Origin: a virus
Strand: one strand, 5' to 3'
IMG/VR virus record: IMGVR_UViG_3300047356_000021
Coordinates: 1 to 37,128 of that record
DNA: 37,128 nt
The number at the start of each line of letters is the position of its first letter. Within the stretch, counting starts at the first letter, position 1. The position numbers were made by a program, and so were the translations under genes. The notes under the pieces are model-generated. The model did not search any database. It worked only from the letters and a program-made list of their open reading frames with translations, and had not been told where the DNA came from. Positions 1 to 24,378 of the stretch are shown here, piece after piece.

Positions 1-141
1 AGCTCTTAATTGGTTACGATTGTACTCGATGTCTGACATCATCATGGACACAGTCCAAACTATGGCACCGCCCTGGACAATGAGACCTACGATGAGGCCG
101 AGAGGTACAGACTTTGAGAGGTGCCAACTATCCTCGCTCAT
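1..141 (-). CDS. Small membrane protein, holin-like, truncated by window edge
   Basis: Forty-seven codons run from an ATG at 141 off the left edge without a stop. The start overlaps the stop of the upstream gene (ATGA), as is usual for translational coupling in this genome. The visible protein begins MSEDSWHLSKSVPLG and has one strongly hydrophobic stretch at about residues 12 to 36, followed by a polar segment. That is the layout of a small single-span phage membrane protein. Its place after the tail fibre genes, where many podoviruses keep lysis genes, makes a holin or other lysis accessory plausible, but no motif proves this. The C-terminus is not visible. Confidence 0.7.
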   Translation of the reverse strand, partial: MSEDSWHLSKSVPLGLIVGLIVQGGAIVWTVSMMMSDIEYNRNQLRA

Positions 142-5915: not shown

Positions 5916-7053
5916 TTATGACAGTCCTGTAATCATCCCATCGGCACCAAAATTCATGTGCTTCAATGAGTATTCGCCGACTACAAAGTGCTTCTCTGAG
6001 TCACCAGTTGCACTTAGAAGTGTACGTGAGAATGGACGTAACACTGCAGATCGCCACATTGCTGGGTCAATCAGTAATGCATGTGTAGAAAGCTGGTGAC
6101 GGTTCAAAACAACTTTGTAAGAACCGAATGGCGTAACGAGAAGTTCCACCACATTGACGAGTGTTTTACTGTCGCCAATTTCACGGTTTCTACCAGCAGC
6201 TGATGTAAAGCCAGCGACAATAGTTGAGTCGGCTGGTTTAATCATAAGTACTGTTGGATCTGAGCCATTGTTGAAACAGCTCTGTCCTAGTTCTAGGATC
6301 TTCGCTTCAGTTAGTGCATCCGTTGCGTTTGCACCAGCGTCAACAGCTGTTGAAATCTGCTGAGTAGCAGAGTCCATTTCCCTGGCTACGGAAGTCGATC
6401 CACCGACTGCTGCGTTGTCCACGCCTACCATAGCACGTTCGAGGTCTCTTTTGATCTCTTTAAGTGCTTTACCTAGTTGGTACGCAGTTTCTTTCGCTCT
6501 ACCATAAGTAGCTATGGAATCGCTGGTAGCACTGACCTGAAAAGCCTTAGTCAGGATCTGGGTTGTACCCGTTCTTTCAGTTGCATTTGACAAAGTTGCC
6601 ATTGATGCATCTGCTCCCTCGACGGCCTTATTATCCGCTGCTGCTGCTAACGAATCCTCGAGCCAGGAGAATGTACGGGCTGAAACCTTCTCTGAGCGTA
6701 TCATGCTGAAGAAGGGTGTATCGGTTGGTGTAATGTCGGAGATACAAATGTTCATCTAAGGTCGTTAATCTTAGACCGTCTTTCGACTGCTATATGTTAT
6801 GCCATATAGATCAGACCATATTATCACCCTGTTGCCAGGGGCTATGCGCTTCGGGCTACTTAGCCCTACTCCATTTCTGGATGGTCGTTGCACCTTCCTT
6901 GATTTCTCAAGGCTTGGCTCAGGATTGTCCCATAGGATGTTCCCTGAGTTCACATAGTTTATTTTGACAGCTTACGCTGAAAGGACACCATCATTTAATG
7001 TCCGAGACATCTTCTTTCTTCCCAACCTGGTCGTATGTAGTATAAGTAGTCAT
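5916..7053 (-). CDS. Major capsid protein (DUF5309 type), split by a group I intron
   Basis: The gene is join(complement(6998..7053), complement(5916..6744)), 885 nt, 294 aa. Exon 1 starts at ATG 7053 behind AGAAGGTAATAAACCTA and codes for MTTYTTYDQVGKKEDVSD plus two bases of an Ile codon. It then meets an in-frame TGA inside the intron. Exon 2 continues ISDITPTDTPFFSMIRSEKV. The joined stretch KKEDVSDIISDITPTDTPFF has the spacing expected of the N-terminus of DUF5309 (phage SU10-type) capsid proteins, in which a Glu-Asp motif precedes SPTDTPF. A 279-aa reading starting at 6755 lacks this N-terminus, and its ATG lies in the last bases of the intron, so it is probably an annotation artefact. 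The scaffold gene is upstream and a strong terminator downstream. The family assignment is from memory of the motif. Confidence 0.93.
6745..6997 (-). ncRNA. Group I intron, 253 nt, in the capsid gene
   Basis: The minus strand shows a full core. P1 is exon GGACAU (7003-6998) with GUGUCC (6988-6983), ending in the required U-G pair. The four bases before it, GAUG (6992-6989), pair with exon 2 UAUC to give P10. P3 pairs 6957-6951 with 6848-6842; P4 CTCAGG with CCTGAG (6948-6943, 6923-6918); P6 is CCTTGA-GAAA-TCAAGG; P7 GACCAT with ATGGTC (6886-6881, 6819-6814); P8 CCCTG with CAGGG; P9 CTATATG with CATATAG. Two small hairpins (6880-6871 and 6866-6853) between P7 and P3' fit subgroup IA, typical of phages. 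The core string AATCCTGAGCCAAGCC is also seen in cyanobacterial tRNA-Leu introns. The last base is G (6745). No endonuclease gene fits inside. Confidence 0.95.
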
Positions 7054-10590: not shown

Positions 10591-12171
10591 TCAGACCATT
10601 TCAATATAGTGATCATTTGTAACCTCGATTGGTTCCCATGCGCCCTCATGGACGTGATTGGCGAGTGCCAGGCTCATGACACAGTCGTCATGGCACCCAG
10701 GCTCCGCTTCCATGCTGCCACTTTCTGTGACGACGTAAGTCAGCATTTCTCTGATAGTAACTTTATCGTTTAGTTCGATTTCGTTCTCTCGTACTGCTGC
10801 TCTTAGTTCATCGATAATCAAAGGCTTTGTCTTTGCAGTTGTGCTGAAGCCTAACTTGATTGTCTCCCTATCGGTCAGCTTGTCTACCTGGACTTCCGTA
10901 AAGAAGTTTGAGTAGGCCATGTCTTTTGCCAGCCTTGTGCATGTCAGTAGACCGTGACCGTTGTTTTCTACAATGATGTATGCCGTATTAAAGAAGTTAC
11001 CTAAGTGAAATAAGACCTGGGCATAGTAGTCGGGATGCACATGTCCACGCCAGGTAGCTACTTGTCGTTTCTTACTGTCGAGTACTTGGGCAACACTATA
11101 GTCACCACCTCGAACACCCATAGCGACGTCAGCTCCAATGACATACTGTTCGCCTGGGTCGTGGCGACGGTACATCGTAAGCTCACCTCGAGAATTGTTG
11201 AGCCACTCTTCACCTTCCAGGGCTAGACGTTCTTTAGGATCTCTAGCGTCTGGTAGCATCTTTTGTAGCTGCTCAGGATTAAACACTGGGCGCCCAGTTG
11301 TCAGAAAGGCTTCCTCGGGTTCTGAGGGGTACTCTTGTCTAAACAAGTCGATACCATTTTGTGCAACCTTTCTGCGTCTAAACATAAGCTGACCGTCGTC
11401 TAGGCCATACTCTTCAGCTAGCTCTATTTCTTCTGGTGTACGCTCAAAGTTGTCAGGGACATCCTCGATGTATTCCGGATCGACGTACCAGGGAATAAAC
11501 ACTGGGACGTATCCATTGGTACCTTCGACGGCACCCTTCCATAGGTCATAGAAAATACCAGCAATACCATTAGCAGTACTCTCGACAAATATAGCAGTAC
11601 CCTTTGTATTAGGTACCGCCTGGGTCAAAGAGTTCCAGTTGTCGGCTGCTGTTGTCTTACTCCAGAATGCAAGCTCTGATGCATGGACGTGTGTAAGCGT
11701 CTCGCCTCGACCAATAGCCTCACCACCAGCTGTCGCAACAATGTACGAACTATCGAGGATGTCAAAAGACAGCTCTCGACGTGATGAGTACTTCGTGTGT
11801 GGCTTTAGTATTTCTGGGCAGTTCTCATGATATCTCTTTGTCATATCAAAGAGCGCCCTGGTACTGTCAGAGTGGTGAGTAACAACTAATGACTTCGCAG
11901 CTTTGCGCTGGGATACACTGAAGTAAAGGTAGCCACCAACGTAAGTCGATAGACCCTGCTGTCGAGCCTTAAGAATAATCACACGTACCTTGCCGTCAGT
12001 CTTCAGCTGCTTAGTGACAGCATCGTTTAGGATCTCTTGTGCAGGGTTTAACTTGAGTGGCGCAATGTCGCCTGTCTTGGTTCGTATCTTTAGTGCAGCT
12101 TTTGAGTAAAACTCAAAGTCGTCATACAGTCTCTTCCGTACTGCTTTCAGTTTCTTCTGTTGGGTTTTCAT
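10591..12171 (-). CDS. Terminase large subunit
   Basis: The 526-aa protein starts at ATG 12171 behind GGAGAGCAAG; an in-frame ATG at 12186 is less well placed. It is the ATPase/nuclease motor that packages DNA. The ATPase half shows a Walker A-like loop near residues 68 to 76 (KARQQGLST) and a Walker B-type acid near residue 166 (THVHASELAFW). The nuclease half shows the RNase-H-like acidic residues: GADVAMG (Asp about 348), VENNGHG (Glu about 402) and CHDDCVM near residue 505. The N-terminus overlaps the small subunit gene by 50 nt and the C-terminus abuts the portal gene. Confidence 0.95.
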   Translation of the reverse strand: MKTQQKKLKAVRKRLYDDFEFYSKAALKIRTKTGDIAPLKLNPAQEILNDAVTKQLKTDGKVRVIILKARQQGLSTYVGGYLYFSVSQRKAAKSLVVTHHSDSTRALFDMTKRYHENCPEILKPHTKYSSRRELSFDILDSSYIVATAGGEAIGRGETLTHVHASELAFWSKTTAADNWNSLTQAVPNTKGTAIFVESTANGIAGIFYDLWKGAVEGTNGYVPVFIPWYVDPEYIEDVPDNFERTPEEIELAEEYGLDDGQLMFRRRKVAQNGIDLFRQEYPSEPEEAFLTTGRPVFNPEQLQKMLPDARDPKERLALEGEEWLNNSRGELTMYRRHDPGEQYVIGADVAMGVRGGDYSVAQVLDSKKRQVATWRGHVHPDYYAQVLFHLGNFFNTAYIIVENNGHGLLTCTRLAKDMAYSNFFTEVQVDKLTDRETIKLGFSTTAKTKPLIIDELRAAVRENEIELNDKVTIREMLTYVVTESGSMEAEPGCHDDCVMSLALANHVHEGAWEPIEVTNDHYIEMV

Positions 12172-12631
12172 CTTGCTCTCCGTCATCGTCCAAAAGTGAA
12201 CTTAAGAAAGCCTCAGCGTTATTTAGCGTAACCTCTTGTTTGGCTACAGGTTTCACCTTCGTGAAATCTAAGATTAGCTTTGCAGCTTGCAGACGATCAC
12301 GATTGTGTACTGGTGTTCTCATGATCTCGACTGCTGTCTCTAATGCTTCTTCTGCTCGAGCATTCATTTCGTGATCTTGTTTCATAATGCTAACTACTTT
12401 CTTTGCGTCTTTCTGTGCTTGTTCGACGATTGGAACCATACGACCTTTTCCATAGCCGTCAGGTACTCCAAGTGGTCGCCCACTGTTCTTCCTAGTTTTA
12501 ATCATTGCTTTGAACTTAGCTCGACCCTCTGGTGTCTTGTGTTGTAACGCCAGGGGGTTTTTGTGAGGTGGTCGAGCCATGTTGGGGTTTTTACGTGGAG
12601 TTTTGCGTCTGGGGTTCTTAGGTGCGCCCAT
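12122..12631 (-). CDS. Terminase small subunit (probable)
   Basis: The 169-aa protein starts behind AGGAGAGATCG at 12631. It has a basic N-terminal 60 residues (RRKTPRKN, KTRKNSGRPLG), then a helical core (residues 65 to 130) and an acidic C-terminal tail rich in Glu, Asp and Thr. A basic DNA-binding part followed by helices and an acidic tail suits a small terminase, which recognises phage DNA and activates the motor. Its overlap with the large terminase supports this. I do not see a classic helix-turn-helix, so the assignment is contextual. Confidence 0.75.
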   Translation of the reverse strand: MGAPKNPRRKTPRKNPNMARPPHKNPLALQHKTPEGRAKFKAMIKTRKNSGRPLGVPDGYGKGRMVPIVEQAQKDAKKVVSIMKQDHEMNARAEEALETAVEIMRTPVHNRDRLQAAKLILDFTKVKPVAKQEVTLNNAEAFLSSLLDDDGEQDENPTEETESSTEETV

Positions 12632-18276: not shown

Positions 18277-19182
18277 CTACTCAGTGTATTGGTTTACGAT
18301 GTTTTCAATCTCAGGGTCTACTTCAAAACTAGAACTGCCTGAGCTAGGCATTGTGTTAGCTACAGATGGCATGGTCTCTGATAGCGGAGCATTCTCATCT
18401 ACTCGTTTACCAGTTGCTAGACGATCCATCATAATTTGCTGCATAGACATCTGCCTGTTTATCCAGTCAATCCAAACGGTTTCTTGAGCATTTACGTCAG
18501 GAGCTTGAGAACCAAACAAAGCCATCTCAGCATTAGATATAGCACCCTTAGTCTTTGAGACTTGTCTTAGGATGCTGTCTAGACGTATCTCTTTTAGAAA
18601 TAGCCTTATAGCCTCTTGTTTATTACCAACTGCCCTACCTACAACTCTATTCCAAAGATCCTTGGGAGATATACCGGTTAAGTTTTCTACATTTTGTAAA
18701 GCGTCTTTAGCTTGCTGTAGTTTAGCCATACCAACACGTAGCTCACCTAATGCTTCTGGGTCAGCCTCTTTGTTTGCAGCCTTAGCAGCATCCTGCTGCA
18801 TCTTAAGAGCTAGCTGTCGTCTCGTTTCTTCTTCGTTGGCTCTCATGACTTCCTGCTGGTATGCTTCCATTTCTGCAGCTCGGTTGTAGTCCTGGATGTC
18901 ACCATATTGTCCTAACATGGCACTATAAGTAGCCAAGGCTCCCTGGTTGTTAGCACCTAGACCAGCGCCACCAATACGCATAAGACCTTCAGATCCCATA
19001 GGTATACGGTTGTTTGGCATTTGAGGCATTCGGTTAGACATGCGCCTGTTGCCTGTAGCACTTTGTAAAACGGGAGCCGATGTAGTTGACTGCGTTGGGT
19101 TGGCTAAGACTGGTGTACCCTGCGATATGGGTAACTGGTTGTTCATCATAGTTGGTATTCTAGATTGTAACATAGGATTCAT
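18277..19182 (-). CDS. Internal virion protein candidate, 301 aa
   Basis: The protein starts MNPMLQSRIPTMMNNQLPIS and has a Met/Asn/Pro-rich, low-complexity N-terminal 70 residues. A long helical, Gln/Glu-rich coil spans about residues 95 to 190 (QEVMRANEEETRRQLALK). The C-terminal 60 residues are acidic. The start overlaps the stop of the previous gene (TAATG), and the giant protein begins 11 nt after its stop, so three proteins of this block are made in series. No enzymatic motif is visible. A role as a minor virion or ejection component is inferred from the neighbourhood only. Confidence 0.65.
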   Translation of the reverse strand: MNPMLQSRIPTMMNNQLPISQGTPVLANPTQSTTSAPVLQSATGNRRMSNRMPQMPNNRIPMGSEGLMRIGGAGLGANNQGALATYSAMLGQYGDIQDYNRAAEMEAYQQEVMRANEEETRRQLALKMQQDAAKAANKEADPEALGELRVGMAKLQQAKDALQNVENLTGISPKDLWNRVVGRAVGNKQEAIRLFLKEIRLDSILRQVSKTKGAISNAEMALFGSQAPDVNAQETVWIDWINRQMSMQQIMMDRLATGKRVDENAPLSETMPSVANTMPSSGSSSFEVDPEIENIVNQYTE

Positions 19183-22137: not shown

Positions 22138-22863
22138 TTAAGTCTTCATGACGTAGCATAGGGCATAGTACGGGGGTCTGTTTTCGTGAGCAGATCCGCT
22201 GCCTGTAGACGTTGTAGCAAGAGTTCTAGTACCATTAGGGTCCCAGGTTGTTGCGTTGAAATCGATGTCGATCCCTGGCGACAATGCTTGCTGAAGTACG
22301 TACAGGTCGGTGTAGTTGTGCGTGTGCGCTGGCATCTCTGAGACAGACAAACTGACAGTAGATGCACCACCGGTGTTACCTACAGAGTAGCTGTTACCAG
22401 CGCCTACCACGAACCTATCTCGTAGGTCGGGGGTGCTATTGCTACCATCGCATAGCACATAGCCGCTGGGGATGGCATTAGCTGCACCAGACCACATCAT
22501 GACCATACCGGTAGGTACAGCAGATGCTAGGTTGTTATTCGTGTTAGTTATGCTCGTAGACAGGTTGTTCAACTGTGTCTGGATGTTACTTGAGACACCA
22601 TTTAAGTGACTGACGTGGGTACTTGTGACACCAGCTGCTGCATTACCACTGAGTAGGTTGTGATCTGCTGTTGTGCCGGTGAAGCCATCTAGGGTGTTCA
22701 GCTCGTCTTCGTTAGCTGTCATAGCTGCGTCGATAGATGGGAAGGTCGCTAAGACGGTGCTCTTGATGAGACGAATGTGATCGTCAGCTTGACCTAGGCC
22801 ATCGGTGCTAGCTGGGTTACTTGAGCTTAAACTGTTGATGTAGGTTCCGGACTCTAAGGCCAT
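22138..22863 (-). CDS. Short tail fibre with phage tail collar domain
   Basis: Residues 1 to 105 are helical and Asn/Thr-rich (HLNGVSSNIQTQLNNLSTS). From about residue 117 the protein carries a classic phage tail collar domain: PTGMVMMWSG, IPSGYVLCDGS, TPDLRDRFVVGAG, then EMPAHTHNY and ENRPPYYALCYVMK at the end. The collar motif organises trimeric short fibres. The ATG at 22863 sits behind AAGAAGGAACCCCCGAC and is the first gene after the 1-kb control region, so it leads the late block. Receptor binding is inferred from the family. Confidence 0.9.
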   Translation of the reverse strand: MALESGTYINSLSSSNPASTDGLGQADDHIRLIKSTVLATFPSIDAAMTANEDELNTLDGFTGTTADHNLLSGNAAAGVTSTHVSHLNGVSSNIQTQLNNLSTSITNTNNNLASAVPTGMVMMWSGAANAIPSGYVLCDGSNSTPDLRDRFVVGAGNSYSVGNTGGASTVSLSVSEMPAHTHNYTDLYVLQQALSPGIDIDFNATTWDPNGTRTLATTSTGSGSAHENRPPYYALCYVMKT

Positions 22864-23190
22864 GTCGGGGGTTCCTTCTTGGGGGTTCTTTTTGTGGGGC
22901 TGGAGTTGTGCTGAAGAACGTCTAACAACAACAACAACGACAACCCTTTAACGGTCTTTTGAAATCGATTGATTAGATTAGACCACGGGGGGTCAAATGG
23001 ATGACTATGGTACCAAATCTAGGTCATTGATTAGACATTGATAGGTCATATCCAATAGTATCAATCACTTATGAGAACACCGGATATATTATCTGTTGTT
23101 CTCTTTGGGGTAATCGATAGACATTAGTTTGACATTAGTGATTTTTATCTGGATGGACCCTATTTCTTTAAAGACAGAATGGGGTCGTCA

Positions 23191-23290
23191 CACCTAAGTC
23201 AACCAGAGCCAACCTAAGTCAACCAGAGCCAACCTAAGTCAACCAAGGTCATCTTTAGTCAACCTAAGTCAACCAAGGTCATCCTTAGAT
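23191..23290. repeat. Ten phased 10-bp repeats (iteron-like)
   Basis: Reading from 23191 in steps of ten, the units are cacctaagtc, aaccagagcc, aacctaagtc, aaccagagcc, aacctaagtc, aaccaaggtc, atctttagtc, aacctaagtc, aaccaaggtc, atccttagat. The period is exactly one helical turn, so a bound protein would contact the same DNA face ten times. A 20-bp higher-order unit (aacctaagtc plus aaccaRRgYc) is also visible. Confidence 0.92.
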
Positions 23291-23443
23291 GTCTTGTGTT
23301 TATCCTTGTCGTTGTCCTGGGTTGTCTTGGGATTACCTAAGATGTCTTCGGTATCTAACCAGTAGCCAGCTTGAGACAGCTCAAGTAATGAAACTACAGT
23401 TGTCTTAGGCATGTGTCTTATGTCCACTTGGGTTGAGTATCTA

Positions 23444-23533: not shown

Positions 23534-23606
23534 AGAGAGAAAATACAATGAATGTACGATAGTAGTAGTAACGATGGTGGTGACACCGTGGTTACATACA
23601 TACGTA

Positions 23607-23619
23607 AGGGGGTACACCG
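23607..23619 (-). promoter_or_regulatory. Shared 13-bp word, copy 1
   Basis: CGGTGTACCCCCT on the minus strand. An identical 13-mer lies at 36159-36171 between integrase and RNA polymerase. Both sites are gene-free and in the same orientation as transcription. A shorter relative (TATACCCCCTTTT) is found after the RNA polymerase gene near 33653. It may be part of a phage promoter or operator. Confidence 0.5.
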
Positions 23620-23667: not shown

Positions 23668-23741
23668 GTGTACCTAAGTAGAACACGTAGGGAACAGCTA
23701 TATTTAGCTATTGATTCAGACGTATTCATGCTTAGGTACAC
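23668..23741. repeat. Inverted repeat, perfect 11-bp arms
   Basis: GTGTACCTAAG (23668-23678) and CTTAGGTACAC (23731-23741) are exact reverse complements, separated by 52 nt. The right arm runs into ACTTAAGT (23740-23747), an 8-bp palindrome that also forms the core of the 14-bp palindrome at 24412. The pair may be two opposed half-sites of a regulator. Confidence 0.75.
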
Positions 23742-23886: not shown

Positions 23887-24378
23887 TTACTTATTAGGCA
23901 GTTGATTAATCATGTTACTAATCTGACCAATCTTAGAGCTAAGGTCTCTAAGACCACTAGTGTGTACTTGTTGCCATAGCCAGTAGCTGTAGTTTTCGTA
24001 ACAGTTCAATAGGTTATCACATGCAGTTAAATGTTTATGTTTCTTAGAGCATCTGTGGACACTTACCCAACCAGCTTCACTGCATTGTTTGACCATAGTC
24101 TCTACGGAGTTTCTAGTTATACCTAGTAACTTGGTAAGCCTAGTGACCGTGATAGCGTCGTTTTCATAAGTAGATCGTATGATATGCATAAAGAATTTAC
24201 GTCTGTTACTAGAAGATAAACTATATTGTACTATCTTTCGTTCGTCGGGATCATGCATGACCCTAGAACCTTCAGTTATAGCTATTTCTATACTAATGTT
24301 TTTCTTTGCCCAATCTTTCAGTAAAAGCTGTTTTGTTTCTTCTAATGTGTACTGTTGTGTATCATTTAGTTTGTTCAT
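23887..24378 (-). CDS. Winged-helix DNA-binding regulator (probable)
   Basis: The 163-aa protein has a central helix-turn-helix at about residues 75 to 106 (ITVTRLTKLLGITRNSVETM, then VKQCSEAGWVSV), which reads like a MarR-type winged helix: recognition helix followed by a beta wing. The N-terminus is helical and the C-terminus ends in a Trp/Gln-rich helix (YSYWLWQQVH) that could make the dimer. It is the last gene of the replication block, directly facing the 1-kb control region downstream and a palindrome upstream, so it is a good candidate for a regulator of late transcription or of its own promoter. It is the only visible candidate for a lysogeny regulator. Confidence 0.7.
   Translation of the reverse strand: MNKLNDTQQYTLEETKQLLLKDWAKKNISIEIAITEGSRVMHDPDERKIVQYSLSSSNRRKFFMHIIRSTYENDAITVTRLTKLLGITRNSVETMVKQCSEAGWVSVHRCSKKHKHLTACDNLLNCYENYSYWLWQQVHTSGLRDLSSKIGQISNMINQLPNK

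Follow-up and report, generated by a model that had tools for sequence, protein, structure and literature searches.

Gene content and layout of the locus

The window analysed here, a virus record of 37,128 bases taken at full length, represents an uncultured T7-like, integrase-encoding podovirus of bacteria, and carries essentially all of its genes on the minus strand. Its metabolic side encodes an integrase, a single-subunit RNA polymerase (RNAP), a gp2.5-like SSB, endonuclease I, a primase-helicase, MazG, a DNA polymerase, an exonuclease and a ribonucleotide reductase (RNR). After these come a winged-helix gene, a gap, and then the tail, ejection, TerS, TerL, portal, scaffold, capsid and fibre genes. 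The late structural operon opens with a gene of the tail collar-fibre type (22138–22863, minus strand; PHROGs tail families, E ~1e-28). A group I intron (6790–7007, minus strand; Rfam, 73 bits) interrupts the major capsid gene after ~20 codons; a similar intron-like sequence sits at the matching place in the related genome G008 and is absent from G010 and G013.

Nowhere but in the gap does the coding strand of the window run for 250 bp or more with no ORF of 60 codons, and the corresponding gap is among the longest in several relatives. A preliminary description had called it the only large gene-free region. It is the sole large non-coding region, but it holds a promoter motif and a 47-codon ORF that is conserved among relatives, and so is not gene-free. 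Transcription of the gap would pass, in order, the promoter motif, the small ORF, an array of short repeats, a conserved box (box A), a dyad and further conserved boxes before entering the late structural operon.

The array (23191–23290) consists of ten contiguous units of exactly 10 bp with zero offset, which read, in order, CACCTAAGTC, AACCAGAGCC, AACCTAAGTC, AACCAGAGCC, AACCTAAGTC, AACCAAGGTC, ATCTTTAGTC, AACCTAAGTC, AACCAAGGTC and ATCCTTAGAT. All ten have C at position 3 and G at position 8. Units 7 and 10 fit neither of the two unit types given in the preliminary description, and unit 1 begins with C. Both Tandem Repeats Finder (TRF) and shuffling bear out the ten offset-free units: the array has the strongest TRF score in the window (91–111), and at lag 10 its best identity reaches 59 of 90, whereas 100 dinucleotide shuffles of the full window gave no more than 44 and the real window with the array removed gave 42. 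The array is thus far beyond chance. Weaker, decayed units extend it to ~23340 (TRF 23311–23331), and the helically phased feature as a whole spans 23187–23340, with a minus-strand unit of GACTTAGGTT.

The small ORF (23269–23412, minus strand; MPKTTVVSLLELSQAGYW...) overlaps the upstream end of the array. Relatives of 48–86 residues occupy the same place in many lineages and share a QAGxxWxW-type stretch. Upstream of the small ORF, the array and the late operon lies a candidate phage-RNA-polymerase promoter, GGTGTACCCCCTTA (23605–23618, minus strand). A search of non-coding DNA for repeated motifs returned one that takes the form ACTAANNGACCCCCT in several relatives; its form in the window is GTACCCCCT or close to it. 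In the window, the gap motif recurs before the RNAP gene and, as a variant, before the SSB gene, on the sense strand only (mean of 0.1 in shuffles). The window and G008, G009, G010 and G013 each carry the motif three times on the sense strand, no more and no fewer: ahead of RNAP, ahead of SSB, and within the gap, where it lies 254–618 bp before box A. With the patterns used, two copies were found in G002, G012 and G014, one in G003 and none in G001. We regard these motifs as candidate phage-polymerase promoters. A perfect 11-bp inverted repeat, GTGTACCTAAG / CTTAGGTACAC (23668–23678 and 23731–23741), lies upstream of the gap promoter.

Conservation of the control region among relatives

No close isolate of this virus was present in the collection searched, and the nearest were distant (~30% identity for a structural protein, at most 40% for TerL). 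These nearest isolates, CRP-7, tf, Limnohabitans phage YIMV22061 and Manatee Spring podovirus, are laid out differently from the window, so their physical ends are not transferable to its family. A profile search of IMG/VR returned 170 related stretches, of which 80 were kept. Gene maps show the two-module layout of the window in ten related records, and all ten relatives searched encode an integrase, as does the window. In G009, a complete tRNA-Phe gene (oriented 18802–18874) adjoins the integrase gene and may be an attachment site or cargo. A protein search of bacterial genomes found no prophage copies, and three box A matches in bacterial records were judged to be chance.

In an alignment of ~30 relatives, the elements follow one another in a constant order: the array comes first, then box A (AGGTCCCGATTTGTCTTTAAAAGAAA), CTAATGTCT, the dyad, AATGATATCAATGACTTAG, GACCCCC, ATTTCAAAA..CCGTTAAAG, (TTG)n and the start of the late operon. 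In the window, box A reads CCCCATTCTGTCTTTAAAGAAATAG (23160–23184, minus strand) and is followed by the CTAATGTCT box (23119–23127, minus strand), the dyad (23073–23103), the AATCAATCGATTTCAAAAGACCGTTAAAGG box (22943–22974, minus strand) and the (TTG)n box (22922–22944, minus strand), which in most relatives keeps a nearly fixed distance of ~245–270 bp from box A. The 3′ block of the gap is the non-coding DNA most widely common to the lineages, and no non-coding block is more widely conserved among relatives than the single-copy AATCAATCGATTTCAAAAGACCGTTAAAGG box. Box A and the TTTCAAAA box are single-copy wherever they are recognisable; the boxes are missing from G011, whose record is broken at the control region, and box A is not recognisable in G012 or G014.

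The dyad, GAGAACACCGGATA and TATCTGTTGTTCTC separated by 3 nt, has arms that are 86% complementary. Across 25 distinct sequences with a dyad at the expected place, 87.6% of cells are paired, a figure biased upward because the set was picked for having the dyad there; in about a third of all distinct relatives, the best inverted repeat was not a dyad at this place. Among the 25 sequences, 8 of 11 pairs are changed in both arms, a count that none of 500 shuffles reached. The covariation would be compatible with a hairpin and with a symmetric protein site alike, and does not tell the two apart.

An array precedes box A in ~16 of 21 lineages, and ~5 lack a clear one. When we pooled the 200 bp before box A across the 21 lineages and compared them with mononucleotide shuffles, identity peaked at lags 10 (z 15.0), 11 (z 10.6), 20, 22, 30 and 33; no lag peaks were found in the neighbouring conserved element. 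The period is 10 bp in the window, L005, L021, L022, L078 and L093, and 11 bp in L020, L065, L074 and L105. The exact helical register of the preliminary description holds for the window; two other lineages depart from 10 or 11 bp, with periods of 12 (L056) and 13 bp (L060). Unit letters differ between the window and L005 although the neighbouring structural protein is 93% identical, and copy number varies among the near-identical records L009, L010 and L019. The core motif of the arrays is GACTKAGGT; when this motif was trained on relatives with the window and L005 left out, the window array proved to be the densest 200 bp of its genome (12 matches, against a mean of 1.0).

As proposed in the preliminary description, the array was compared with its counterparts in relatives: it keeps its place and helical period but differs in unit number and sequence, a pattern suggestive of protein binding or of some other function that depends on register. 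Place, period (mostly 10 or 11 bp) and core are conserved, whereas unit letters and number change rapidly, also among near relatives. Helical register is a trait of the family; the function assigned to it here is an inference. A DNA site contacted once per helical turn fits the array best, since a period kept while letters change is expected if a multimeric protein contacts one face of the DNA at each turn.

In L014/G003 the metabolic module (integrase through RNR) has the opposite orientation with respect to the structural module, and in G003 the promoter motif, weak repeats and the conserved element remain beside the structural operon despite this inversion. The control region is real and conserved, and new to the literature that we searched, in which we found no description of either the array or the region around it. 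Tentatively, we take the array to belong to a single-copy, cis-acting control region that would travel with the late structural operon in uncultured, integrase-encoding T7-like podoviruses.

Several further observations were set aside. An exact-unit search of IMG/VR matched 10 contigs once apiece, with no strong period-10 array in the stretches fetched, and these matches were judged to be chance. Contig ends cluster within the array, for which the repeats alone account. Predicted intrinsic curvature ranged from the 59th to the 99th percentile across seven genomes and was inconsistent between arrays, so intrinsic bending is not supported.

A possible genome-processing site and its alternatives

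We tentatively favour a reading in which the control region is a genome-processing site, either a concatemer junction or a pac-like site, though our confidence falls short of even. In this scheme, transcripts begun at the gap promoter would cross the control region, and each helical turn of the array would offer one contact, always on the same face, to a multimeric phage protein. Cutting by the terminase would take place close by, and the dyad would serve as the cut site or as a hairpin. The leading candidate for the protein that would bind the array is a putative ring of small terminase subunits. We favour this reading because the region is single-copy, a promoter would transcribe through it, and its order matches the T7 right end. 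The T7 right end comprises phiOR (39229), gene 19.5 (39389–39538), CCTAAAG repeats and a terminal repeat with a GTCAACC/GGTTGAC palindrome. Like the T7 concatemer junction (phiOR, gene 19.5, SRR, terminal repeat, SRL), the window has a candidate promoter, a small ORF, short CT-A-AG-type repeats and a palindrome-bearing conserved element in the same order. Support also comes from lags 10 and 11, which stand out in 21 lineages and are absent from the neighbouring element, from the turnover of letters and copy number while place, period and core persist, and from G003, where the inversion leaves the promoter motif, the weak repeats and the element next to the structural operon.

Other observations count against the processing site. 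The T7 repeats are CCTAAAG at ~12–13 bp, unlike those of the window family, and the GACTKAGGT motif is not enriched at T7 SRL or SRR. In the window family, for which no terminal repeat is known, late genes follow the array. The window’s TerL has phrog_2 rather than phrog_38 as its best family and is not T7-type. A genome end at the control region would not place RNAP beside an end. A clear array is missing from roughly one lineage in four, and the two with 12- or 13-bp periods also depart from the pattern. The model of TerS (pLDDT 76, predicted to be all-helical) had no match in the PDB.

Small terminases offer a second comparison. In published small terminases, the helix-turn-helix (HTH) motifs are arranged around a ring with neighbours about one B-DNA turn apart, and the repeats near a promoter in SPP1/SF6 pac sites have been taken as small-terminase sites (PMC4737164). 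This spacing would fit ~10 array units, and repeats near a promoter are common to both systems; unlike those of SPP1/SF6, the window repeats are many, contiguous, phased and far from the terminase genes, and the TerS fold is unmatched. More specifically, the array could be a nucleosome-like wrapping site, with ~10 boxes, one per turn, around a small-terminase ring, so that boxes would change quickly with the protein while their spacing stayed fixed; we consider this version distinctly unlikely. The putative small terminase itself (12122–12631, minus strand) has an invariant GRP and an AT-hook-like stretch.

The preliminary description had likened the array to iteron origins or cooperative regulator arrays. 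The window resembles iteron origins and ParR-type centromeres in having tandem and, putatively, protein-bound sites, and ParR-type sites can be ~10–11 bp; it differs from both in that unit sequence varies within the family, and no initiator or partition gene was recognised among the proteins scanned. With T7-type replication genes, a Rep-type iteron origin is not supported. Nor is the suggested winged-helix binder supported: the 163-aa protein concerned (23887–24378, minus strand; weak MarR-like match) was detected in 3 of 11 mapped genomes, the window included, and lies elsewhere in one of them. That homologue, in G014, sits between int and RNAP, and a separate search of viral contigs found no relatives. 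The lack of a recognised initiator and the T7-type genes accord with a transcription-primed origin. In such an origin, RNAP would initiate from the promoter, an RNA–DNA hybrid would be favoured because the array has a G-rich non-template strand, and the transcript would prime DNA synthesis, as at T7 origins. The promoter motif upstream of the array and a single-copy non-coding region with AT-rich boxes are in its favour. A GC-skew check, a weak test, gave no flip and no sign of a bidirectional origin at the array; skew is unchanged at the control region and the kept period is left unexplained, and we rate such an origin as somewhat unlikely.

The promoter motif and the dyad covariation would also suit an RNA-level leader of the late mRNA, with array and dyad forming hairpins for processing, stability or pausing. 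The array RNA of the window folds to −46.7 kcal/mol (z −6.0), and in 17 of 19 lineages the transcribed strand folds more readily than the opposite one. This strand difference is largely due to G/T-rich composition, and folding that is strong against dinucleotide shuffles shows a small excess against permuted unit columns (mean z −1.1). Hairpins would also have no need of direct repeats at fixed helical spacing, and a leader function is in our view unlikely.

A neutral minisatellite produced by replication slippage would account for the differing copy numbers of L009, L010 and L019, but the arrays are independent of one another and yet share a location, a core and, in most lineages, a period of 10 or 11 bp, which makes this improbable. 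Least probable by far is an integrase attachment site with the array as arm-type sites and the dyad as core: the window and all ten relatives searched encode an integrase, but tRNA-like attP candidates adjoin int in most mapped genomes, one module away from the array, and the letters of the dyad change freely.

Significance for terminase recognition and T7-like phages

Strong experimental support for the nucleosome model of small-terminase recognition is said to be missing (PMC7672466). How small terminases recognise start sites is unsettled, and a family of arrays whose spacing hardly varies while their letters change is a ready-made test set for this question. The control region bears on the role of the short repeats at T7 ends, which to our knowledge is unsettled. 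It also supplies candidate promoters for an uncultured phage group.
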